Source: Gigantopelta aegis (taxonomy: Eukaryota > Mollusca > Gastropoda > Neomphalida > Peltospiridae). Taken from it: a stretch of DNA of 64,000 bases. The stretch lies in contig NC_054699.1 in the NCBI RefSeq assembly GCF_016097555.1, forward strand, positions 3,392,293 to 3,456,292, in the 5' to 3' direction. This document shows positions 2,717 through 57,741 of this stretch, piece after piece. Both the position numbers and the translations under genes were made by a program. A model generated the notes under the pieces. That model was not told the DNA's origin. It was given only the letters and a program-made list of their open reading frames with translations, and made no database searches. Each line of letters starts with the position of its first letter. Within the stretch, counting starts at the first letter, position 1.

Positions 2717-3924
2717 TTGGAAATCGGTTGCAATTTCATGGTCGATCATCAGTTGTAATCTGTTAGCACTAATCGATCGACTTTCGATTATGCAATCTGT
2801 TAGAACTTGGAGAGGATCAGACAAATTCGGAACTATGCACCTATTTTAAACATATGTATATACATGTATATATTTTTTCATCATGATCATCTAAAACGTC
2901 TTAAGTAGTAATGTTTACTTTTTAATGTTCTTACGTTTCCAAAACAGATATCTTTTACATGAGATGTAAATTTTGTTGCAGGTTTGTAGAATATTTTTGA
3001 GAACAATATAGCAAAGACATAAATGTAGTTCAAATAGCATAATGGATTCATTTCTTCAATATAACTCCATATCAATAAGCAACTAAAACGCTACATTTAA
3101 GCATTCTATAATGATATTTTGTTTAAGAATTATGTTATACAACTGAAACAAAATGCAAAGGAAAAACATAGGAAATTACTTAAAGTTAACATAACTATAC
3201 TTCAGACATAAAATATGCTGGGATTTGGGTTTGTTTTCACGTGTAAGCAAATATCCGTCTAAAAGCTATAACATTTGCATATATGGTTGGGGTTGGGTAC
3301 TCACAATGAGTATAAGGTAGTTCATAACTTATTTTAGTGGACGAATCGTCCGTGGACAACTTATCAGCTTTTCGGTTTTATTCGGTGCCACCGTATGTGG
3401 TTGCGCACCGCTCTTTAATCAAACCAGTTTTTATTCCGTACTTAGATATGCCTAATAATTTATATTTTCTTGGTTCCAATTGTGAATGTATGATAAGAAT
3501 GTTTGAATGTAACAGATATTTTTATTTCTTTTTAATATATATTTTTTTAAATCTCAGTATTTGTTTTATTCTTTATGACAAATGCGAAAATAAATAAATG
3601 TCAATGAACACACAGATTTACCAGTAATAGCGGCATAGCCTCAAAAGGTTAGAAATAAAAAACGTACATAATAATAGCCCACAAATACTGGATTTGATGA
3701 ATACAAATTCTGACAACGAGCAAGGAAATATTTACTGCGCTTAACAGTTTTCGCGACAATCGATTATGAATTTCACAATCGATCATCACATTGCCAGAGC
3801 CCCAACCGATCAATCTTCGATTATAATCGAGCATCGGAACACCACTAATATGCATGTGTGTATATACGTATGCATGAATGAATGGATGGGTGTTGGAATG
3901 ATGAAACCTTTTATTTTTGAAAAA
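2714..3924. other. Unassigned, low-complexity ORFs only
   Basis: Short open frames, for example at 3337-3597, have no recognisable domain or splice context. The 2720-2800 and 3740-3840 stretches share ATCGATT-rich wording and may be old repeat fragments. Confidence 0.4.
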
Positions 3925-5226
3925 TTCAAAACGAAGAATCAAGAAACTTTCATAGCAAATTAGTTTCCCAAATAGAATTAGAAAACGGAAATTTAATCAC
4001 AGAGCAAGCGGAAATATTGAAAGAAACAAAACGTTTTTATGAAAAACTGTATTCAAAACAGGAATCTGAATGTGAAGATATAACAAAATTAATTGAAAAT
4101 TGTAATTTTAATATTCTCTCTGATGAAGAAGCTGCAGAGTTGGATGGGGAATTAATGTACGGTGAAGCTTTATTATTTCTTAAAAATATGAAGAATGAAA
4201 AAAGTCCTGGTTCTGATGGATTTCCAGCAGGATTTCTAAAATTCTTTTGGCTAGATTTGTGGCACTTTGTAGTTCGAGCCATCAATTATAGTTACAGTAT
4301 TCAAGAAATGTCACATGTACAAAAACTAGGTATCATAACCTGCATACCAAAAGCAAACAAACCTAAGCAATTAAAAAAAAAAATGGAGGCCACTCACCCT
4401 TTTAAAGTGTACTTATAAAATAGCATCTGGTTGCATCGCAAATAGGATAAAAATCGCATTGGACAAAATTATTGAAAAAGATCAAACAGGATTTATAAAG
4501 GGAAGAAATATAGGAGAAAATATAAGGTTAATATATGACATTATGCAATACACAGAAACATAAAAAATACTAGGTCAGCTATTATTAGTTGATTTTGAAA
4601 AGGCGTTTAACTCTGGAAATTTATTTAAAAAAACTCTAGACATTTTTAATTTTAAGTGTTCAATAAAAACGTGGATACAAACACTGTATAAAAATTCAGT
4701 TTCAGCTGTAATCCAAAATGGTTATCTATCAGAAAGTTTTAAGTTATACAGAGGCTGCAGACAAGGCGATCCGTTATCGCCCTACATTTTTATAATATGT
4801 GCAGACATACTTGCCATTTGAATAAGCAATAACAAGAATATTAAGGGAATTTATATTGATGGAGAAGAATATCTTATTTCCCAGTATGCAGATGATACTA
4901 CTTTTATTTTGGCTGGATCTCCCGAGTCATTGTACGGCACACTTACTACTTTAGACTGCTTTGCAAAAATGTCAGATTTGAAGCTAAATTATTCTAAATC
5001 AAAGACAATATGGATTGGCAGAAAAAAGTTCTCAAATGAAGTCTTTCATCATACTAGATGGAAATTAGAATGGGGTTCAACTAAGTTTACTTTATTGGGA
5101 ATTCGCTTCTCTTTAAATTTAAAAGATATAGTTAAAGATAACTTTGAATCAAAAGTATTAAAAATGGAAAGTACAATGAAAATCTGGGGTGCACGAAAAT
5201 TGACGTTATTAGACTCACTGTTTTAA
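3925..5226 (+). mobile_element. L1/Tx1-type LINE, 5'- and 3'-truncated reverse transcriptase
   Basis: Conceptual translation across frames gives reverse-transcriptase blocks in the right order: FYEKLYS, SPGSDGFP (4203-4226), QTGFIKGRNIGENIRLIYD (about 4485-4540), [19 protein letters not shown] (about 4753-4782), and QYADD with the catalytic Asp pair (about 4882-4896). The arrangement matches the L1/Tx1 group. A frameshift at about 4380 in an A-run and stops at 4561 and 4819 show it is dead. The same family occurs at 47134-49161 on the minus strand, where the residues after GRKKFSNEVFHHTRW are nearly identical. Similarity ends near 5226. Confidence 0.85.
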
Positions 5227-6617: not shown

Positions 6618-7012
6618 ATTTAAAGTGACATACCCTAGACTTTAAACACTTTACAGAAGTTTCACTATTAAAGTGACAGACCCTAGATTTTAAACACTTT
6701 ATGGCATAGTTTCACTATTAAAGTAACATACCCTAGATTTTAAACACTTTACGGCATAGTTTCAATATTAAAGTAACAGACCCTAGATTTTAAACACTTT
6801 ACGGCATAGTTTCACTATTAAAGAAACAGACCCTAGATTTTAAACACTTTACGGCATAGTTTCACTATTAAAGTAACAGACCCTAGATTTTAAACACTTT
6901 ACGGCATAGTTTCACTATTAAAGTAACAGACCCTAGATTTTAAACACTTTACAGCACAGTTTCACTATTAAAGTGACGGACCGTAGATTTTAAACACTTT
7001 ACGGCATAATTT
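6618..7012. repeat. 50-bp minisatellite, 8 copies
   Basis: Units carrying 'CCCTAGATTTTAAACACTTT' recur at about 6632, 6680, 6731, 6781, 6831, 6881, 6931 and 6981, a strict 50-bp period after the first two. The reverse complement of the unit core (GTGTTTAAAA..GGGTCTGTC..CTTTAA) matches the core of the 104-bp satellite at 24090-25698. Confidence 0.92.
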
Positions 7013-7330
7013 CAACACGTGAAAATTAACACTAAGTTTAGTTAATCTATAAACCTGTAACACATTTGGATAAAGTTGCAGTTGAGTGAAGCATGAGTCT
7101 GTGACTTTGAAATGGTGAAATACCCTCTAAAAATGGAGTAAAACTCAACTCCATAACTGTTACTTCTCAGACTCACATGCGTTTTTTAAAATATGAGAAC
7201 TGCATTTAGTGATATTAAAAACACCAGGATGACCAAAAAGACTTTGAATATACGGAAATGGCTAATCTAACCAATCCAATCTAAGTAAAGTATGTCCCTT
7301 TAAAACCTCAAGGTAACGCGTTGGAAACAG
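7013..7330. mobile_element. Body of dispersed element X, copy 1
   Basis: About 250 bp here align in the same orientation with 23875-24110. Shared phrases include 'CACTAAGTTT', 'CCTGTAACA', 'CATTTGGATAAAGTT' and 'ACATGCGTTTTT'. In this copy the tandem array is on the left side; in the other copy it is on the right. Confidence 0.75.
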
Positions 7331-8573: not shown

Positions 8574-8852
8574 ATGTTGCCATTTCGTCAGACTGTGGCC
8601 ATTTTCCTGATGGTTACAAATGTGGTGCTGCTCTCTGTCGTGGTGTATAAAACATCACAGCTGTACACGAAACCGCACTCTACCATCTTCAGTAACTCGG
8701 AGATCTGTCACAAGGTCACGTGTAAACCAGGAGAGCGGTGCTGTGACGTCACTGCAACCAACAAAACCGTCAATGGTTCTTTGTATTGCTGTTACGATGA
8801 CTACGATGACTACGTTGACTACGGGGAACGTATTCGTAGTATTATGCTAAAG
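8574..8852 (+). CDS. TNF-like exon 1: anchor and Cys-rich stalk
   Basis: This exon encodes 93 residues and ends with AAG before the donor GTAGGC (phase 0). A potential splice acceptor (TTTTAACAG) at 8515 suggests the exon starts at 8516 and that a non-coding exon lies further upstream. The start codon has A at -3. Six cysteines in the stalk, including two CC pairs, are unusual for a TNF ligand stalk. Confidence 0.8.
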
Positions 8853-9804
8853 GTAGGCATATGCTATCATAGACTGATTACAAATTATAATATACGTTAC
8901 GCCATTCGTTTAAATGTTTTAGTTGTGTGAATGTATACTGTGTGTTGTTTTTTCGGTGCACTGATCCGCACACACATGCGACGACCAGCAATTTTAGTCT
9001 AGCAGTGATCACGTGACAGTCAAAATGGCAGCTTTTCCCCCGCATTTGTTTTGACGGTGGTCATCGAGTCATGTTCTACACCATATTTGTTGTGACGTAA
9101 AATAGTGAATTTACGTAAAGCAGCACTGAATCCGTCCCGCACGCTTTAAGGTCCTTTGGGATATAACCACACAATTTGTTCAGAAAACCTATATAAACAT
9201 ATCTGGTATTCCAAGCGCAGACTCGATCTCTGCAAGTCACATCTCCTTTTTAGCCTTCTTGCTATATTTAGGGGATGCTGTGTCAAAACGACATGACATT
9301 GTCTGCCACAGCACCACTAATTCATCCTCTTCTTCTGTAGGCCACATGTTGCTGGAGGCTGCCATTTTGAGTCATGTGATCACTATCTATCCGTTCATTG
9401 GTAGTTTAAATTATTACGTCAACGTTTTGTTGCATTGAAGGCGCACACGTTTGCGACGGCGTGCAATTACATGTAATAAAATCAAACATGTTTGATCGGA
9501 GCAATTTCATTTGCATGCAACAAAACTAAACGACGTTTAGGAATGGAACATAATTGAAAATGATATATTCAGTTTATTGATACAAAATTAGCCAGGAGCA
9601 GTTTGAAGTCTATAATTCGACAATCAATATGCACAATTATTTAACAAACTTCTAATAACATTAAATGGAATCCTGTGACTTGGATATTTTAAAAACCAAC
9701 CAGGAATGCTTTGACAATCTCAAGTCGTTTGTCCGTGCACGTTTTTAATTGTTTTATGTTTCTTCTTCTTCTTCTTCTTATTGTTATTGTTATTGTTATT
9801 TTTA

Positions 9805-9841
<37 letters not shown>

Positions 9842-12800
9842 CGTTATTAATTAACATTTATCCAACAAAATTCAATTTAGATTATGAATAAAATAAATTT
9901 CAAGTTAAATCTTTACGAAATTAGAAAACAGTGTACTTATTTCTTAAGCGTAGGGATCATTTGCTGTTATGCAAGTACATTTTTTATCAGGTTTCTGGCA
10001 ATGATCCGCGGATGTGTTGTGCGTCATTTAATCTCGTCTGCATAAAGAGCTTTTGCAGCAGACCCAAAAAGAGTATCTTATGTTTAGTAGCATGTTTCTT
10101 CTTTAACACACTAGAGCAAACGTCACAGATATATTGTTTTAACAAACTACAGTCTGTTATGAATGTGATGAGGTGTCGTTTAACATTCCTTTCTTTTCCC
10201 ACGTCATGAGAAAACATTTGTGCAATACGTATTTCAAACTTCCTATACTAGATGACAGTTATATTGTTTTAATTATTTTTCAGCAACTGAAGGACAATTA
10301 TGAAAGGGATATAAAAAATGGTAAGTTCCATCAACTGCACACACACACACATATATACACACACACACACATACACACACATACACACACACATACGCGC
10401 ACAAACACACACACACACACACAGACACATACACACACATACATACACACACATACATACACACATACACACACAGACATACACAAACACACACATACGC
10501 ACGCACACACACACACACACACAGACACATACACACACACGGATACACACACACACATACATACACACACATACATACACACACACAAAAACATACACAA
10601 ACACACAGATACATACACAACACACACACACACACACACACACACAGAGAGACATACACAAACACACACACACACACAAACACACACACACGCACACACA
10701 TACACACACGCACGCACACATACACACACACAGACATGCACAGAAAATATGAAAATTATTTTTGTCATTATGAGTGACCACAGGGTTAACAAGTAGAGGA
10801 TATTTCATATTTTTTGTCAAATATGATTTATATCACATCTCACGAGTCGCGCTTGCGTGACTATTGTGATATGACTGCAAACTTCACGAGATGAGATATA
10901 AATCTTATTTGATATAAATCTTATTTATTATATAACTTTTGGCAATTTTGTTATATTTCTAAAATGTCAGCAGCAAAATAGTTTCGGCTTTCTTACAGTG
11001 AACATAACACTTTTTACAGTGACGATAACACATTTTAAAATTTTTACTCTAAAATGTGTTATCGTCACTGAATGACTAATAACACTTTTATTTCAGATAT
11101 TTTAAGAAATTTCACTAAATGTTATAGGCCTATAATAAATTATAAATTATGTTATTTCAGACAACCACCTCCAGAGGGTGAGGAAAGTTGCTGCTGTTGT
11201 AAACGTATTATAGACCACGTATTACACTTAGTTCGTAATGTTATTTCAGATGACCATCTCCAGAGGGTGAGGAAAGTTGCTGTTGTTGTAAACGTATTAT
11301 AGACCACGTATTACACTTAGTTCGTAATATTATTTCAGATGACCATCTCCAGAGGGTGAGGAAAGTTGCTGTTGTTGTAAACGTATTATAGACCACGTAT
11401 TACACTTAGTTCGTAATATTATTTCAGATGACCATCTCCAGAGGGTGAGGAAAGTTGCTGCTGTTGTAAACGTATTATAGACCACGTATTACACTTAGTT
11501 CGTAATATTATTTCAGATGACCATCTCCAGAGGGTGAGGAAAGTTGCTGCTGTTGTAAACGTATTATAGACCACGTATTACACTTAGTTCGTAATGTTAT
11601 TTCAGATGACCATCTCCAGAGGGTGAGGAAAGTTGCTGTTGTTGTAAACGTATTATAGACCACGTATTACACTTAGTTCGTAATGCTATTTCAGATGACC
11701 ATCTCCAGAGGGTGAGGAAAGTTGCTGTTGTTGTAAACGTATTATAGACCACGTATTACACTTAGTTCGTAATGTTATTTCAGATGACCATCTCCAGAGG
11801 GTGAGGAAAGTTGCTGTTGTTGTAAACGTATTATAGACCACGTATTACACTTAGTTCGTAATATTATTTCAGATGACCATCTCCAGAGGGTGAGGAAAGT
11901 TGCTGTTGTTGTAAACGTATTATAACACGTATTACACTTAGTTCGTAATATTATTTCAGATGACCATCTCCAGAGGGTGAGGAAAGTTGCTGCTGTTGTA
12001 AACGTATTATAGACCACGTATTACACTTAGTTCGTAATGTTATTTCAGATGACCATCTCCAGAGGGTGAGGACATCTGCTGCTGTTGTAAACGTATTATA
12101 GACCACGTATTACACTTAGTTCGTAATGTTATTTCAGATGACCATCTCCAGAGGGTGAGGAAAGTTGCTGTTGTTGTAAACGTATTACAAACCACGTATT
12201 ACACTTAGTTCGTAATGTTATTTCAGATGACCATCTCCAGAGGGTGAGGAACGTTGCTGTTGTTGTAAACGTATTATAGACCACGTATTACATTTAGTTC
12301 GTAATGTTATTTCAGATGACCATCTCCAGAGGGTGAGGAAAGTTGCTGTTGTTGTAAACGTATTATAGACCACGTATTACATTTAGTTCGTAATGTTATT
12401 TCAGATGACCATCTCCAGAGGGTGAGGAAAGTTGCTGTTGTTGTAAACGTATTATAGACCACGTATTACATTTAGTTCGTAATGCTATTTCAGATGACCA
12501 TCTCCAGAGGGTGAGGAAAGTTGCTGCTGTTGTAAACGTATTATAGACCACGTATTACACTTACTTCGTAATGTTATTTCAGATGACCATCTCCAGAGGG
12601 TGAGGAAAGTTGCTGTTGTTGTAAACGTATTATAGACCACGTATTACATTTAGTTCGTAATGTTATTTCAGATGACCATCTCCAGAGGGTGAGGAAAGTT
12701 GCTGTTGTTGTAAACGTATTATAGACCTCGTATTACATTTAGTTCGTAATGTTATTTCAGATGACCATCTCCAGAGGGTGAGGAAAGTTGCTGTTGTTGT

Positions 12801-14167
12801 AAACGTATTATAGACCACGTATTACACTTAGTTCGTAATGTTATTTCAGATGACCATCTCCAGAGGGTGAGGAAAGTTGCTGTTGTTGTAAACGAAGACA
12901 AAACTCAACAGAAACCTGCTGCTCATCTGCAGATGGACCCTGATGCAGTGTATGACAAAGGTGGGATTTGTTTTTTAGAAAGATAATAGACTCTCGGTCG
13001 ATTTCAGACTGTTGTCACAACAGGAATCTTGGCACATTCTGTATTGAAAAATCCACAATAACTAGTTATGATCAGCTAAGGAATATTCACTTTGAACGTA
13101 CAACGTAAACAAACGAAGCGATGTTAAAAGATACTACTAATAAATATTTTTGTTAATAACAATATATTTAGTATTTCGTAATATCTTATTTCAATAAGAA
13201 CTATTTTGTTTTGGTGTATAAATATAGGCAACAAAGTGGTCATTGCGCATGGATCTACTACTCCGTAAAACGATAAAGTTATCAAATAGGCCTAAATAGA
13301 AATTATTATACGAGCTTGTGTATCGTATTGATTTTACGAAACGAGTGTCAGGATTTTTGTATTGCCCGAGCGAGAGTGAGGGTAATACATGAATCCCAAC
13401 ACTAGTTTCGTAAAATCAGTACGACTCACACGCGAGTGTACTAATTTCTATATTATCTATATTATTATTGTTGTTTTCTTTACGAATAACAAGAACCGAC
13501 TAAAAAAATTTCAGCCACAACTAGAAGGAGACGATGAAATGACGTCACATTTCAAATGCACAGTCTGAGCTAGGACTGGAGAAGCAACGTCATGTTATGA
13601 TGTGGCTTCTCAAAAATATGTCATTACACTTGTTACTACACGTGTGCTTCGTATGATTATTATTATTATTAACTCGGTTATGTTGAACCATATGGATAAT
13701 AAAATGCTTCATTTACTTAGCGTATTATGTATAATACTGGGTGGCTTTCTTTCCCCCCAGATGAACATATCTCGGCTCTCCGGTGGAAAACAAATGGGAA
13801 GAGATCGTTTGTGAAAGACGGACTCACTGTCGTTGAAGAAGGGATTCGGGTGGAGAAAGAAGGTAACTATTTCATCTACAGCAACGTCGTGTTTTACGGC
13901 AACCAGACTAAGGAACTCGATTTCGCCAGACTTTGTCATTACCTGGACAAACGCGTCCCCACGACAAGAAGGTCTAAATTCCAACAGCTGTCGTCCAACC
14001 CCCAGTCGACGTGTAAAGTCCGACGAGGGAAGCTCGCCTTCGCGCCATCCTACATCGGCGCTGTCTACCATCTGGAGGCCGGGGCCACGGTGATGGTGAG
14101 GACGTCGTCGGTGGATAGACTTGTCAAACAGCCACAGTCGACGTACTTCGGAATTTACATGATTTAA
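8574..14167 (+). CDS. TNF superfamily ligand-like gene (4 coding exons, 277 aa)
   Basis: This is a type II membrane cytokine of the TNF ligand family, expected to trimerise and signal through TNF receptors. Four exons join: 8574-8852 (ends phase 0), 10284-10320, 12850-12960, 13761-14167. The last three carry phase-matched AG/GT sites and total 834 nt. The N-terminus has a single hydrophobic anchor (about residues 6-24). A Cys-rich, N-glycosylation-bearing stalk follows (CHKVTC, ERCC, YCC, then an Asp/Tyr-rich run to about 85). The TNF homology domain begins at KPAAHL (127-132). It contains LRWKTNGK, GLTVVEEGIRV, GNYFIYSNVVF, a Cys201/Cys227 pair and the terminal YFGIYMI, giving about 150 residues, normal for the family. 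An in-frame TGA six to seven codons upstream supports the 8574 start. I cannot name the subfamily. No canonical RXK/RR furin site is visible, although RVRK at 111-114 lies at the expected place. Confidence 0.85.
8996..9394. mobile_element. Non-autonomous DNA element in intron 1
   Basis: Inverted ends of about 33 bp flank roughly 400 bp. 'TAGCAGTGATCACGTGAC' followed by 'CAAAATGGCAGC' (8999-9033) pairs with the reverse complement of 9355-9390. The left arm contains a CACGTG E-box and the right arm contains CATGTG. Confidence 0.65.
9768..9845. repeat. (TTA)n/(TTC)n microsatellite in intron 1
   Basis: TTC repeats lead into TTATTG and then ATT trinucleotide repeats. Confidence 0.9.
10284..10320 (+). 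CDS. TNF-like exon 2 (37 nt)
   Basis: This short exon encodes QLKDNYERDIKN plus the first base of the next codon. It has a T-rich acceptor (AATTATTTTTCAG) and a strong donor GTAAGT. It joins exon 1 in phase 0 and exon 3 in phase 1. Confidence 0.7.
10337..10736. repeat. Compound (CA)n microsatellite, about 400 bp, in intron 2
   Basis: CA repeats broken by ATACA, GCACG and CAGACA variants begin about 17 bp after the exon 2 donor. They generate long spurious open frames on both strands (HTHT or VCVC peptides). Confidence 0.97.
10817..10925. repeat. Imperfect inverted repeat (MITE-like) in intron 2
   Basis: 'TGATTTATATCACATCTCAC' near 10826 pairs imperfectly with 'GAGATGAGATATAAATC' near 10891. 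It is probably a small foldback element. Confidence 0.5.
11017..11070. repeat. Perfect 21-bp inverted repeat (hairpin)
   Basis: Arms 11017-11037 and 11050-11070 are perfectly complementary (starting CAGTGACGATAACAC) with a 12-nt AT-rich loop. It lies about 90 bp upstream of the splice-site array within the same intron. Confidence 0.85.
11152..12840 (+). repeat. 89-bp tandem array duplicating the exon 3 splice acceptor (19 units)
   Basis: Pseudo-acceptors TTATTTCAG precede copies of the exon 3 start at 11161, 11250, 11339, 11428, 11517, 11606, 11695, 11784, 11873, 11960, 12049, 12138, 12227, 12316, 12405, 12494, 12583, 12672 and 12761. The true exon starts at 12850. The spacing is 89 bp with one 87-bp unit. 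Each unit holds the acceptor, the first 45 nt of exon 3 (through GTAAAC), then about 35 nt of intron-like sequence. In the exon frame each unit reaches a TAG two codons after GTAAAC. Each unit also contains GGTGAGG and GTAAAC, which resemble splice donors. The first unit is the most diverged at its exon start (ACAACCACC). Confidence 0.95.
12850..12960 (+). CDS. TNF-like exon 3: stalk end and start of TNF domain
   Basis: The 111-nt exon carries the stalk-proximal residues DHLQRVRKVAVVVN (also encoded in every array unit), then EDKTQQKPAAHLQ, the first strand of the TNF homology domain. It starts and ends in phase 1, with acceptor TTATTTCAG and donor GTGGGA. Only this copy continues past GTAAAC into coding sequence. 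Confidence 0.8.
13298..13455. mobile_element. Foldback MITE in intron 3
   Basis: Arms of about 50 bp (13298-13350 and 13401-13453) pair around 'GATTTTACGAAAC' and 'GTTTCGTAAAATC'. The loop holds GAGCGAGAGTGAGGG. Confidence 0.65.
13761..14167 (+). CDS. TNF-like exon 4: main TNF homology domain
   Basis: The acceptor is a strong C-rich tract (TTTCTTTCCCCCCAG). With the carried-over G it opens as DEHISALRW and ends YFGIYMI-stop, giving 134 residues. It holds the conserved aromatic and glycine positions of the TNF jelly-roll, one N-glycosylation site (NQT, residues 190-192) and the Cys201/Cys227 pair. Codon use is noticeably more GC-rich than the flanking introns, as expected for a real exon. No clear polyadenylation signal lies in the 30 bp before the next MITE. 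Confidence 0.88.
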
Positions 14168-14197
14168 TAGTCCGAGTATCTTCTTATTCCTAACAGC

Positions 14198-23874: not shown

Positions 23875-24089
23875 AAGTGGACACTAAGTTTGGTAAATCT
23901 ACGAACCTGTAACAACATTTGGATAAAGTTACAATAAAGTGAAACACGAGTCTGACATTGAAACGAGAAAATACCCTCAAAATACAACAGAGCTTGTGTC
24001 AATAACCGTTACTTGTCAAATATACATGCGTTTTTAGAATTATACAAACACCACGGTGACCAGCAATACTCGGGTGTAGGAAAATGGAT
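23875..24089. mobile_element. Body of dispersed element X, copy 2
   Basis: It aligns with 7020-7260 in the same orientation ('CACTAAGTTTGGTAAATCTA', 'ACATTTGGATAAAGTTACA', ACATGCGTTTTTAGAA). It runs directly into the 104-bp satellite, whose unit begins with the element's own right end (AATCTAAACAATAGAATG). Confidence 0.75.
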
Positions 24090-25698
24090 AATCTAAACAA
24101 TAGAATGAAAGTAACGTCTGATTTTAGTTGTCAAAGATCTAATAGTAATAAATACACCGTAGTGTTTAAAAAACTGGGGTCTGTCGCTTTAATCTAAACA
24201 ATAGAATGAAAGTAACGTCTGATTTTAGCTGTCAGAGACGGATCTAATAGTGACAAATACACCGTAGTGTTTAAAAACTGGGGTCTGTCGCTTTAATCTA
24301 AACAATAGAATGAAAGTAACGTCTGATTTTAGCTGTCAAAGACGGATCTAATAGTGACAAATACACCGTAGTGTTTAAAAACTGGGGTCAGTCGCTTTAA
24401 TCTAAACAATAGAATGAAAGTAACGTCTGATTTTAGCTGTCAAAGACGGATCTAATAGTGACAAATATACCGTAGTGTTTAAAAACTGGGGTCTGTCGCT
24501 TTAATCTAAACAATAGAATGAAAGTAACGTCTGATTTTAGCTGTCAAAGACGGATCTAATAGTGACAAATACACCGTAGTGTTTAAAAACTGGGGTCTGT
24601 CGCTTTAATCTAAACAATAGAATGAAAGTAACGTCTGATTTTAGCTGTCAAAGACGGATCTAATAGTGATAAATACACCGTAGTGTTTAAAAACTGGGGT
24701 CTGTCGCTTTAATCTAAACAATAGAATGAAAGTAACGTCTGATTTTAGCTGTCAAAGACGGATCTAATAGTGACAAATACACCGTAGTGTTTAAAAACTG
24801 GGGTCAGTCGCTTTAATCTAAACAATAGAATGAAAGTAACGTCTGATTTTAGCTGTCAAAGACGGATCTAATAGTGACAAATACACCGTAGTGTTTAAAA
24901 TCTGGGGTCTGTCGCTTTAATCTAAACAATAGAATGAAAGTAACGTCTGATTTTAGCTGTCAAAGACGGATCTAATAGTGACAAATACACCGTAGTGTTT
25001 AAAAACTGGGGTCAGTCGCTTTAATCTAAACAATAGAATGAAAGTAACGTCTGATTTTAGCTGTCAAAGACGGATCTAATAGTGACAAATACACCGTAGT
25101 GTTTAAAAACTGGGGTCAGTCGCTTTAATCTAAACAATAGAATGAAAGTAACGTCTGATTTTAGCTGTCAAAGAACGGATCTAATAGTGACAAATACGCC
25201 GTAGTGTTTAAAAACTGGGGTCAGTCGCTTTAATCTAAACAATAGAATGAAAGTAACGTCTGATTTTAGCTGTCAAAGAACGGATCTAATAGTGACAAAT
25301 ACGCCGTAGTGTTTAAAAACTGGGGTCTGTCGCTTTAATCTAAACAATAGAATGAAAGTAACGTCTGATTTTAGCTGTCAAAGACGGATCTAATAGTGAT
25401 AAATACACCGTAGTGTTTAAAAACTGGGGTCTGTCGCTTTAATCTAAACAATAGAATGAAAGTAACGTCTGATTTTAGCTGTCAAAGACGGATCTAATAG
25501 TGATAAATACACCGTAGTGTTTAAAAACTGGGGTCTATCGCTTTAATCTAAACAATAGAATGAAAGTAACGTCTGATTTTAGCTGTCAAAGACGGATCTA
25601 ATAGTGACAAATACACCGTAGTGTTTAAAAACTGGGGTCAGTCGCTTTAATCTAAACAATAGAATGAAAGTAACGTCTGATTTTAGTTGTCAAAGACA
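24090..25698. repeat. 104-bp satellite, about 15 copies
   Basis: 'AATCTAAACAATAGAATGAA' recurs at 24090, 24191, 24295, 24399 and on to 25649 at 104-105 bp intervals. Units are over 95% alike by eye, with scattered A/C and T/A variants and two one-base insertions (AAGAACGG). The unit core GTGTTTAAAAACTGGGGTC is the inverse of the core of the 50-bp array at 6618-7012. Confidence 0.95.
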
Positions 25699-26154
25699 GA
25701 TGACTCGTTCATAGGAACTGTCGGAAATGCAGTGTGTAGTGTCGCTGGAGTCTTGATACATCCTTTTAAAAACCTTTTGCTATAGGAAAACGAATTGAAA
25801 ACATATAAGCTACTCACAGTCACAACATTAAATGTGGTTTTATTTAGTAAAAGAAAAAGGAGGGGGCGGGAAAAAAAATAGTTTTTACAATATGGCAGTA
25901 TTATTGTGGGGTTTTTCTTCTCATATTATTTACATGCTACTGAACAAATGTTTAAAAAAAAATAGCATTAGTTTATTTATAGTGTTACCAAGGTTCGGTG
26001 TTTTATGTCCATGATCTACGTAAAATGAAATAACAGTTGGATAGTAAATATATATAAAAAAAATACGCAGCTAGACAAAAAAGGCATTTCTAAACTGAAA
26101 AGTGCACCTTTTTTATCCCCTACCTCCCCAGCCCACCTCTCGTCCACTCTTGTT
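25699..26154. other. Unassigned
   Basis: A-rich and T-rich runs, with no coding or repeat family recognised. Confidence 0.45.
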
Positions 26155-30027: not shown

Positions 30028-31476
30028 ACCTATTTATTTAATTTTCTTGATAAATATACAGAGGCGGGACGTAGCTAATTGTCATTCAATTCTCTTAACA
30101 AACATATTTATTTAATTTTCTTGATAAATATACCGAGGTGGGACCTAGCTAATTGTGATTCAGTTCTGTTAACAATCAGTTTTATTTAATTTTCTTGATA
30201 AATATACAGAGGCGGGAAGTAGCTAATTGTCATTCAATTCTGTTAACAATCATATTTATTTAAATTTCTTGATAAATATACCGAGGTGGGACCTAGCTAA
30301 TTGTCATTCAGTTCTGTTAACAATCAGTTTTATTTACATTTCTTGATAAATATACAGAGGTGGGACCTAGCTAATTGTCATTCAATTCTGTTAACTATCA
30401 GTTTTATTTAATTTTCTTGATAAATATACAGAGGCGGGACGTAGCTAATTGTGATTCAATTCTGTTAACAATCATATTTATTTAAATTTCTTGATAAATA
30501 TACAGAGGCGGGACGTAGCTAATTGTCATTCAGTTCTGTTAACAATCATATTTATTTACATTTCTTGATAAATATACAGAGGTGGGACCTAGCTAATTGT
30601 CATTCAATTCTGTTAACTATCAGTTTTATTTAATTTTCTTGATAAATATACAGAGGCGGGACGTAGCTAATTGTCTTTCAATTCTGTTAACATTCAGTTT
30701 TATTTAATTTTCTTGATAAATATACAGAGCCGGGACGTAGCTAATTGTCATTCAATTCTGTTAACAATCAGTTTTATTTAATTTTCTTGATAAATATACA
30801 GTGGCGGGACGTAGCTAATTGTCATTCAATTCTCTTAACAATCATTTTTATTTAATTTTCTTGATAAATATACAGAGACGGGACGTAGCTAATTGTCATT
30901 CAATTCTGTTAACAATCAGTTTTATTTAATTTTCTTGATAAATATATAAAGGCGGGACGTAGCTAATTGTGAATCAATTCTGTTAACAATCAGTTTTATT
31001 TAATTTTCTTGATAAATATACAGAGGCGGGACGTAGCTAATTGTCTTTCAATTCTGTTAACAATCAGTTTTATTTAATTTTCTTGATAAATATACAGTGG
31101 CGGGACGTAGCTAATTGTCATTCAATTCTCTTAACAATCATTTTTATTTAATTTTCTTGATAAATATACAGAGGCGGGACGTAGCTAATTGTCATTCAAT
31201 TCTGTTAACAATCAGTTTTATTTAATTTTCTTGATAAATATATAAAGGCGGGACGTAGCTAATTGTGAATCAATTCTGTTAATAATCATATTTATTTGAT
31301 TCAATTCTGTTAATAATCATATTTATTTAATTTTCTTGATAAATATACAGAGGCGGGACGTAGCTAATTGTCATTCAGTTCTGTTAACAATCAGTTTTAT
31401 TTAATTTTCTTGATAAATATACAGAGGCGGGACGTAGCTAATTGTGATTCAGTTCTCTTAACAATCAGTTTTATTT
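30028..31476. repeat. 74-bp satellite, 19 copies
   Basis: 'CTTGATAAATATACAGAGGC' starts recur at 30046, then every 74 bp to 31230, then at 31335 and 31409. The unit contains GGCGGGACGTAGCTAATTGT. Its first 13 bases equal the head of family A SINEs (GGCGGGACGTAGC followed by CCAGTGGT). Confidence 0.95.
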
Positions 31477-33533: not shown

Positions 33534-33567
33534 ACTGGACAAACGTTAGTAGGCGGGCTTCAACATT

Positions 33568-34440
33568 ATGCCGAACAAAAGTTTAAAGTTGCCCTCTGAT
33601 TTCAGAGCAAGTCGACAGAACTCACGTGAGTTTACGTTAGGTGTATTTACAAAACCATTAATTAATAATATCAAGTATGTGTCATTTGGTCAGGAGTTGG
33701 ACATTTTTTCTGAACACTTAACCGATTCGAGAATTGTACCTTTTATAACCGAGTTGACATGTAGCAACCCTTTATTATTTTTTAATAAACATTTAAAAAT
33801 TCAAGATTTAAAAGTTCGTTTCGTTTTGGAATTTACAAATGACAAATTCAAAAATTACAACGCTTATTGCATCAGGCTACTGATATACTACACGTACGAC
33901 TTACTGGTTCAATTTCCTTGCATCGTGAAAATAACTTTAGCAATAGACATATTAGCGGTGGACAATCTGCGCTTTATCTGTTTTTACTTCCTTTTCAAAA
34001 TATATAAGTTAACTATAAAAAAAGGTATTTGCCAAGAACCCCGCTTGTACTTTCCGGAACTAACTCTTTATACTGATGCTTCAAAACAAGGGTGGGGTGC
34101 TTTCCTGGAAAATTGCAAACTTCCATTTGGTGCCAGGTGGCCAGCCAATGAACGTTATAAAAAATGTACATCAAATTATCGTGAATTGTCGGCAATATCT
34201 TATGCTTTGAAATGTGTCCCATGGAACTGTCGTGTAAATATTAAAAATGACAATCAATCTGCTGTTAATTATCTTAATGGAACAGCACGTAAAATTTTTC
34301 CAGAAATGTTGAAGTTAACTAAAGAAATACATGCCCGGTGTAACAGTCGAAATATTGAACTTACTGTCGGCTACATTCCAGGCAAACTAAATAAAGCAGA
34401 TTTTGCATCCCGAAATTTTTCTACTAATGACATTAAATAA
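33568..34440 (+). CDS. Intact ORF with DIRS-like RNase H domain (290 aa)
   Basis: The C-terminal half is an RNase H fold of the type found in DIRS/tyrosine-recombinase retroelements: LYTDASKQGWGAF, NYRELSAISYALK, NIKNDNQSAVNYLNG, VGYIPGKLNKADFASR. All four acidic residues are present: D170, E206, D228 and D278. The first about 155 residues are AT-rich, with hydrophobic runs and no domain I recognise. No reverse transcriptase or recombinase flanks it, and the frame is unbroken for 873 bp among many dead elements. A CCAAT/TATA pair lies just upstream and AATAAA at 34583 just downstream. It could be a domesticated gene, a solo fragment of a young element, or a retrocopy. Confidence 0.7.
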   Translation: MPNKSLKLPSDFRASRQNSREFTLGVFTKPLINNIKYVSFGQELDIFSEHLTDSRIVPFITELTCSNPLLFFNKHLKIQDLKVRFVLEFTNDKFKNYNAYCIRLLIYYTYDLLVQFPCIVKITLAIDILAVDNLRFICFYFLFKIYKLTIKKGICQEPRLYFPELTLYTDASKQGWGAFLENCKLPFGARWPANERYKKCTSNYRELSAISYALKCVPWNCRVNIKNDNQSAVNYLNGTARKIFPEMLKLTKEIHARCNSRNIELTVGYIPGKLNKADFASRNFSTNDIK

Positions 34441-56377: not shown

Positions 56378-57741
56378 CCTCCCATTCTGCCTACAACCCA
56401 CTTTGCCTACACCCATTTTTCCTACAACCCAGTATGTCTACACTCAGTTTGCCTATAGTATGACAACGTGACATCCCCAGTTAATAGTGGGACAATCCCT
56501 ATTACTTTTTGTCTCAAACCAACATAAAAACATTGGGTAACATTGTATTATATAAACAATTAAGATGACGACAAATTACTTGTATTTGCAACCGATGAAA
56601 TGCTTGTTAGAATGCAGGAAGCTGAAACCCTATTCATAGATGGTACGTTTTATGCGTGTCCTGGTTTGTGGGATCAGCTGTATTCGATTCACTGTTTATC
56701 TGGTGCTACGATGGTTCCTGTTGCATTTGCCCTAATGCCGAACAGAACAAGGGCAACATATGTCAGATTGTTTAACCAGCTGAGCTCTGTGGTTGAGGAA
56801 AAGACGGGGTTTGACTTGTCACCTGAAGTTGTACAGACTGACTTTGAGATTGCAGCAATCCAAGCAATCGAGGAGATTTTCCCAGATGCCGATACACGTG
56901 ATTGTTTGTTTCATTTCAGTCAGTGCATGCTGCGAAAAGTTCAGGGGCTTGGACTTATGAGACTGTATCGTGCTGATCAAGGGGTACAAACTCTAGTTAG
57001 ACATGCCGCCAGTTTGCCTTTGCTGCCTATCGATCATGTTCAAGATGTGTGGATAGACATTATGAATGAGCGACCTGATCACCTGCCCCATGTAACTGAA
57101 TTTACAGACTATGTGACAACAACGTGGGTTGATGATGACTCCTTGTTCAAGGTAGCTATGTGGAACCAGCATGGCAACATTGGTCCTAGAACCAATAACC
57201 ACCTTGAAGGGTGGCATTCCAAGCTGAACCGTTCTCTTACAAAAGCTCACCCTAACATTTATGAGTTCATAAATAAACTGAAGGACGTTGAAGAGAAAAC
57301 CAGAAGGACACTGATCCAACTTGACCATGGGGCAGCTCCAGTACCACGAAAGCGGGTGTATCGTGATATTGATACACGCCTTATGAGGCTGAAGAATCAA
57401 CTTCAACAAGGCCGCAACACTCCTTTAGAGTGTTTAGACGCTGCCAGCCACTTGCTAAAACTGCAGTTGTAAATATGACTTTGAACTTTGTACAAAATAT
57501 TTGTTTAACATTTCTGGGTCATTTTAATAGTTTAATCGTATTTGTTGTGTAATGTTAATCGTTTTTATAATAAAATATGTGTTTGCCATATTATTTTGTC
57601 ATGTTATTTTATACATATGGACCATACATGGAATGTTCCACTTTTAACTGGGGGTATCATCTTTTCATACTGACTGTAGGCAAACTGGGTTGTAAGCAAA
57701 ATGGGTGTAGGCAAAGTGGGTTTGTAGGCAAAATGGGAGGA
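56378..57741 (+). mobile_element. MULE DNA transposon with repeated-motif TIRs
   Basis: Inverted ends of about 70-85 bp (56378-56460 and 57671-57741) pair well. Both are built from 4-5 tandem motifs of the type ACCCACTTTGCCTACA. The ends read CCTCCCATT and AATGGGAGG. The element is only about 1.36 kb, shorter than autonomous MULEs, because the region 5' of the transposase core is missing. No clear 8-11 bp target duplication was seen. SINE tail sequence starts just beyond the right end. Confidence 0.85.
56600..57472 (+). CDS. MULE transposase core (290 aa), intact
   Basis: The enzyme would excise and integrate the surrounding transposon. The MULE DDE domain has the first Asp in FIDGTFYACP (residue 14), the second in VVQTDFEIAA (about residue 96) and the Glu in NNHLEGWH (about residue 203). 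The DCLFHFSQ motif (about 118-125) lies between them, as in the family. Family similarity extends upstream of the ATG (DDKLLVFATDE in frame) to a TAA at about 56561, so this ATG is internal to the ancestral protein. The N-terminal zinc-finger region is absent. A splice acceptor (CAATTAAG) at about 56563 could join an upstream exon, but none is seen inside the TIR. Confidence 0.87.
   Translation: MLVRMQEAETLFIDGTFYACPGLWDQLYSIHCLSGATMVPVAFALMPNRTRATYVRLFNQLSSVVEEKTGFDLSPEVVQTDFEIAAIQAIEEIFPDADTRDCLFHFSQCMLRKVQGLGLMRLYRADQGVQTLVRHAASLPLLPIDHVQDVWIDIMNERPDHLPHVTEFTDYVTTTWVDDDSLFKVAMWNQHGNIGPRTNNHLEGWHSKLNRSLTKAHPNIYEFINKLKDVEEKTRRTLIQLDHGAAPVPRKRVYRDIDTRLMRLKNQLQQGRNTPLECLDAASHLLKLQL

Follow-up and report, generated by a model that had tools for sequence, protein, structure and literature searches.

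A minisatellite across an intron/exon boundary places 19 decoy splice acceptors ahead of a TNF-like exon in the snail Gigantopelta aegis

Minisatellites whose units cross intron/exon boundaries are known from amphioxus under the name 'mirage', where they are reported to leave splicing undisturbed (PMC3087553). In these loci the units stand in tandem, many of them carry splice signals, and the authentic copy lies at one end; the units undergo concerted evolution and have been suggested as a source of new introns, and in one gene, BflGb6, the repeated segment joins the 3' end of an intron to the 5' part of the following exon (PMC3087553). Further cases involve Adh3, TnC and PGBD5 (PMC3087553, PMC3902484). 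Here we describe an array that resembles the amphioxus mirages in all these respects of layout, and BflGb6 in the part repeated, in a 64,000-nt stretch of the genome of Gigantopelta aegis (the window; C1:3392293-3456292 of genome G000, 1.15 Gb). In a TNF-like gene of this window, an 89-bp minisatellite crosses the boundary between intron 2 and exon 3 and puts 19 decoy copies of the exon start before the real one. The array is probably a tolerated, mostly neutral boundary minisatellite, with exon definition picking the last copy in intact genes.

A single extra boundary occurs in humans, where CBS 844ins68 duplicates the intron 7/exon 8 boundary. The insertion brings in an alternative splice site and is accompanied mostly by wild-type mRNA, with traces of another transcript (PMC1334203); unlike the snail array, it is a polymorphism with one extra copy. 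Internal tandem repeats at exon-intron boundaries of human segmental duplications can change gene structure and, like the snail array, are minisatellites in recent paralogs; their units average 30 bp in 4 copies, and the excerpted parts of that paper describe no long acceptor array (PMC2812944). From the amphioxus mirages the present case differs in its mollusc host, in its size (as many as 23 decoys, where the BflGb6 haplotypes have 3 and 6 units), in forming a paralog series on two chromosomes with units that are nearly uniform between them, and in an annotated terminal exon that consists of a decoy; these features are new. Mirage splicing in amphioxus was checked by reverse transcription PCR, whereas the snail array is known from the genome and its annotation. 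A literature search of incomplete coverage found no mollusc acceptor array and no account of the present TNF family, and TNF is not mentioned in the main text of PMC7895826, the presumed source of the assembly.

The tandem repeat finder (TRF) reports a single array at 11149-12894, with period 89, 19.6 copies, 97% matches and a score of 3275. Each unit is made of the last ~44 nt of intron 2 and the first ~45 nt of exon 3. Twenty TATTTCAG acceptors stand between 11161 and 12850, spaced by 89 bp in 18 of the 19 intervals and by 87 bp in one, and the twentieth, at 12850, is the start of the real exon 3. This bears out the proposal of an earlier sequence-only reading that 19 near-identical acceptor copies precede the true exon. 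Four of the decoys share one identical 89-nt intron and exon haplotype with the real copy. The most diverged decoys, 1 at the first edge and 11 inside the array, differ at 4 exon positions each, so that an edge unit and an inner one are equally far off where exclusion of edge units from homogenisation is considered.

The host gene lies on the plus strand at 8574-14168, and its four exons, joined from the sequence, give one frame of 277 amino acids (aa). Its product is, by sequence, a TNF-superfamily ligand: the C-terminal TNF homology domain scores 70.4 bits against PF00229 (cut-off 23; E 1.8e-19), and of the solved structures lymphotoxin-alpha matches its sequence best (PDB 4mxv, E 4.7e-10). 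Both this identity and the position of the repeat ahead of the TNF domain agree with the earlier reading. The hydrophobic segment of exon 1 would form a type-II-like membrane anchor. The features of the gene and array are given below; L numbers denote loci and P numbers NCBI proteins.

8574..8852, plus strand: coding part of exon 1, with start codon, hydrophobic segment and Cys-rich stalk; donor GTAGGC (open reading frame (ORF) and homology to P0001-P0006)
10284..10320, plus strand: exon 2, 37 nt, donor GTAAGT (frame and paralog alignment)
11149..12894, plus strand: 89-bp minisatellite across the intron 2/exon 3 boundary, 19 decoys and the real exon start (TRF, acceptor spacing)
11161..11204, plus strand: exonic part of decoy 1, encoding DNHLQRVRKVAAVVN, as does real exon 3 of the paralog L018/P0004
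11205..11237, plus strand: intronic part of the first unit, a copy of the original end of intron 2, containing an in-frame TAG
12049..12092, plus strand: exonic part of decoy 11; a rare variant in it recurs in decoy 1 of locus L023
12850..12960, plus strand: real exon 3, 111 nt, 37 codons, phase 1-1, donor GTGGGA; the repeat covers its first ~45 nt (acceptor spacing, frame)
13761..14168, plus strand: exon 4, with most of the TNF domain (PF00229) and the stop codon (domain search, frame)

The array is one member of a series. A DNA search of the snail's own genome gave at least 93 unit matches, on C1 and C5, and since all of them fall at 15 TNF loci the array is not a chance match. Thirty regions were fetched; 21 of these and the window gene were scanned for the exon-3 start, and the remaining nine held no unit. 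Fifteen TNF loci on the two chromosomes, the window included, have a recognisable exon-3 start, with 91 copies in total (20, 10, 4, 2, 1, 1, 1, 1, 6, 4, 3, 24, 3, 10 and 1 per locus). Array length thus varies from 1 to 24 copies between paralogs of one haplotype, with 1-23 decoys at ten loci and none at five. At L023 the last of 10 copies is truncated and only the first part of the real exon is left; damage is also seen at L020 and L024. Exon 4 is 99.5% identical between the window gene and L009, which carry 20 and 10 copies, respectively; a simple recent duplication does not account for the two, because exon 1 is 89% identical and the upstream parts align at ~90%. Trees had little resolution, 1 of 8 inner branches being starred for exon 4 and 1 of 6 for exon 1. 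The region of the P0006 gene includes a run of N, and no exon 3 was found there; exon 2 of L019 lies upstream, in L029, with exon 1 found in neither L029 nor L019. Two paralog introns have GC donors, intron 2 of L014 (GCAAGT) and intron 1 of L010 (GCAGGC), and the L014 model with its GC donor is the NCBI protein P0002.

These loci form a natural series of 0, 1, 2, 3, 5, 9, 19 and 23 decoys before nearly the same exon. Because the series is graded, the choice of the spliceosome among identical or near-identical 3' splice sites becomes testable in snail transcriptomes, and the same paralogs could also show whether boundary minisatellites create new exons.

We assembled models that use only the last acceptor for ten loci and compared them with NCBI proteins. 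Four match letter for letter, namely L009/P0001 (9 decoys), L018/P0004 (2 decoys), and L012/P0003 and L014/P0002 (0 decoys); for L016 (5 decoys), comparison by eye shows agreement with P0005 up to the end of exon 3. Among the ten models, those of the window, L010, L013, L015 and L017 have no identical NCBI record, and the second member of the two-member P0001 cluster may be the window gene's protein. At the level of annotation, the authentic copy at one end of the array is therefore part of the transcript at two loci with decoys, L009 and L018.

Local site strength cannot make this choice in the window, since four decoys are identical to the real copy over 89 nt. Masking of the decoys by RNA structure was considered and rejected: local folding gave similarly low accessibility at all 20 acceptors (0.011-0.095; real acceptor 0.030). 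Going by what is generally known of exon definition, the cue for the last copy is most likely the real donor 111 nt downstream. The spliceosome would pair the last acceptor with this donor, because the decoys have only internal donors that give exons of 17 or 38 nt, and the earlier copies would be removed as intron. The same internal donors, GTGAGG and GTAAAC, stand in the real exon 3, where the annotation does not use them and where they would likewise be ignored. At L010, L011 and L017, GTAAGG takes the place of GTGAGG at the internal site of real exon 3; the change is synonymous and would seem to improve the donor. Occasional use of a decoy would lead to a premature stop and presumably to decay, and where the real exon is lost a decoy could act as a terminal exon.

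What a decoy would do to the protein was computed for 19 read-throughs, for single mini-exons, for their same-length pairs and triples and mixed pairs, and for a mini-exon joined directly to exon 4. Read as exons, 18 of the 19 window decoys stop 17 codons in, two codons past AAC, and one stops 23 codons in, giving products of 122 or 128 aa. The earlier reading had placed an in-frame TAG two codons after GTAAAC in each unit; this holds for 17 decoys, which carry GTATTATAG, and fails for two, one of which has TAA while the other, unit 12, stops six codons later. Its frame-shifting mini-exons of 17 and 38 nt are as proposed and give 117 and 124 aa, singly or as same-length pairs and triples; mixed pairs give 117 or 124 aa, and 128 or 135 aa result when a mini-exon is joined to exon 4. 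Inclusion of a decoy thus brings a premature stop on every computed path, with truncation at 117-135 aa and without the TNF domain, so that decoy use is a dead end, as had been suggested. Skipping of exon 3 leaves the frame intact and yields 240 aa.

The decoys are not kept as coding exons, and their codons are without protein constraint. Among 74 of them (a truncated copy and two carrying 3-nt deletions were set aside) the exonic variant types number 21 nonsynonymous, 4 synonymous and 0 stop, against 69/29/2% expected; the 13 real exons counted (L024 left out) have 4 nonsynonymous and 3 synonymous types. Mutually exclusive alternative coding exons were ruled out by this lack of constraint and by the stops on all computed decoy paths. 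The splice signals are largely intact: of 76 full decoys, all keep the AG, 75 keep GGTGAG and 75 have a stop inside their own unit. However, in a set of 72 copies, from which first copies, the truncated one and three shifted by indels were excluded, 52 of the 89 columns do not vary, and two invariant columns are therefore expected about a third of the time, which makes the retention of AG unremarkable and rules it out as proof of function. Within the acceptor core (-8..-1), 1 of 8 columns is variable, compared with 36 of 81 elsewhere (p = 0.08; decoys alone 0.11); a value of p = 0.03 is reached only with the three indel-shifted copies, and constraint on the core is not claimed.

The intron 2 ends of the single-copy loci L012-L015 resemble the intronic part of the array consensus (36-39 of 45 nt, a raw match without background), and the unit therefore has the appearance of intron end and exon start cleanly duplicated in tandem. 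An 89-bp segment over the 3' splice site of intron 2 would have been duplicated in tandem in a TNF-like gene and grown into a minisatellite. The left flank of the window array was considered as a degraded intronic unit and rejected, its score of 13 not being significant (background mean 8.6, with 21% of the background equal or higher). Intronic consensuses of the arrays, which rest on only 1-3 copies at some loci, are at most 1 nt from that of the window at 9 of 10 loci (window counted), on both C1 and C5, and 4 nt from it at L020. First-copy flanks match at 28-44 of 45 nt between loci, and the alignable, mostly intronic stretches of the window and L012 are 74-75% identical. Because the units are near-uniform on two chromosomes while the first-copy flanks differ, the arrays point to exchange between loci or to spread of the array; the window and L023 also have rare variants in common. 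Units are more alike within arrays than between them, as in mirages, with a mean of 2.9 differences within loci against 4.7 between, a contrast that none of 2000 label shuffles of the 73 copies, taken as independent, attained. Local homogenisation combined with exchange or spread between loci fits both the uniformity and the likeness within loci.

A protein search with a hypothetical decoy-ending product identified P0007, which is NCBI LOC121385771 isoform X2 (116 aa). This protein consists of exon 1 and exon 2 of L023 followed by a decoy read to its stop, and the match is exact for decoys 3-9 and not for decoys 1, 2 and 10. As L023 is without a real exon, splicing in the annotation goes to a decoy once the real exon has been lost, and the decoy in question is not the first. 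Multiple isoforms are annotated by NCBI chiefly where transcripts back them. At annotation level, the decoys thus seem to be competent splice sites, and this isoform is a concrete candidate for the birth of an exon. No second decoy-ending cluster was listed among proteins of 67-213 aa, where clustering at 90% could hide near relatives within the two-member P0007 cluster.

This isoform also shows that decoys may not be silent, and it is among the points that weigh against a tolerated, neutral array. Neutrality is unproved, AG being kept in every full decoy (though this has the chance expectation given above), and the NCBI gene models may rest partly on protein homology. In addition, the exact 23-nt site of a locus's own real exon (20 nt of intron, 3 of exon) recurs in only 18 of 67 decoys (window 10 of 19, L009 5 of 9, L019 0 of 23), so that small local differences could aid the choice at other loci. 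It is conceivable, if improbable, that the array is a splicing trap graded by copy number, in which competing acceptors would lower the full-length ligand and yield a TNF-less membrane stub, a stub that loss of the exon would have fixed at LOC121385771; in that case, the new terminal exon there is the work of a boundary minisatellite, and the two members of the P0007 cluster might each derive from a different decoy. The closely related proposal of a poison-exon array, in which decoy use would grow with copy number, lead to decay or a stub, and let array length set the ligand dose, is likewise doubtful. The truncation on all computed paths, the intact AG in 76 of 76 decoys and the decoy-ending isoform speak for it, as does the difference of 19 to 9 decoys between the window gene and L009 with their near-identical exon 4. 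Five of the 15 paralogous loci in the same genome have no decoys, however, only one decoy-ending candidate was found, its locus is without a real exon, and the low variation of the acceptor core is not significant. The suggestion of the sequence-only reading that the array is a length-sensing or poison-exon switch therefore finds no support as a conserved function, given also the range of 1-23 decoys at the other loci and the 21 to 4 variant types; the AG retention and the one isoform remain partly in its favour.

Its other suggestion, a simply tolerated expansion, is best supported, by a decoy number of 0-23 among paralogs and by unconstrained codons. That the decoys are instead a reservoir of exon starts, supplying the real exon with variants through gene conversion and so diversifying the stalk, appears very unlikely. 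D/N/Y and A/V variants are common to decoys and real exons, decoy 1 of the window encodes the exon start of L018, and the real exon is on average nearer to its home decoys than to others at 6 of 9 loci; variation of the real exons is nonetheless small, single-copy loci have like kinds of variants, and the nearest decoy lies elsewhere at 5 of 9 loci, is tied at 4 and lies at home at none (more decoys exist elsewhere). Least probable of all, and hardly to be expected, is an expansion or collapse error of assembly, which the earlier reading had named as something that would refute its claim. Tandem arrays are error-prone, and one mirage was apparently mis-assembled in the amphioxus draft (PMC3087553), but arrays occur at ten loci across the two chromosomes, and these differ in copy number and have private variants. 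The presumed source assembly used PacBio reads, Canu with minReadLength 8000 and Hi-C (PMC7895826), and its minimum corrected read length of 8000 exceeds the 1.75-kb array.

Minisatellites are common around these loci, with 16 others in 280,829 bases (not a random sample). In the window, further ones lie at 24089-25701 (104 bp x 15.5), 30033-31301 (74 bp x 17), 6620-7014 (50 bp x 7.9) and 273-697 (60 bp and variants), and a 44-bp unit is repeated ~44 times near the L018 gene (4176-6084 on the fetched strand). ORF fragments of the window at 3921-5226, 33553-34440 and 56564-57472 resemble what we take to be LINE reverse transcriptase, retroelement RNase H and transposase.

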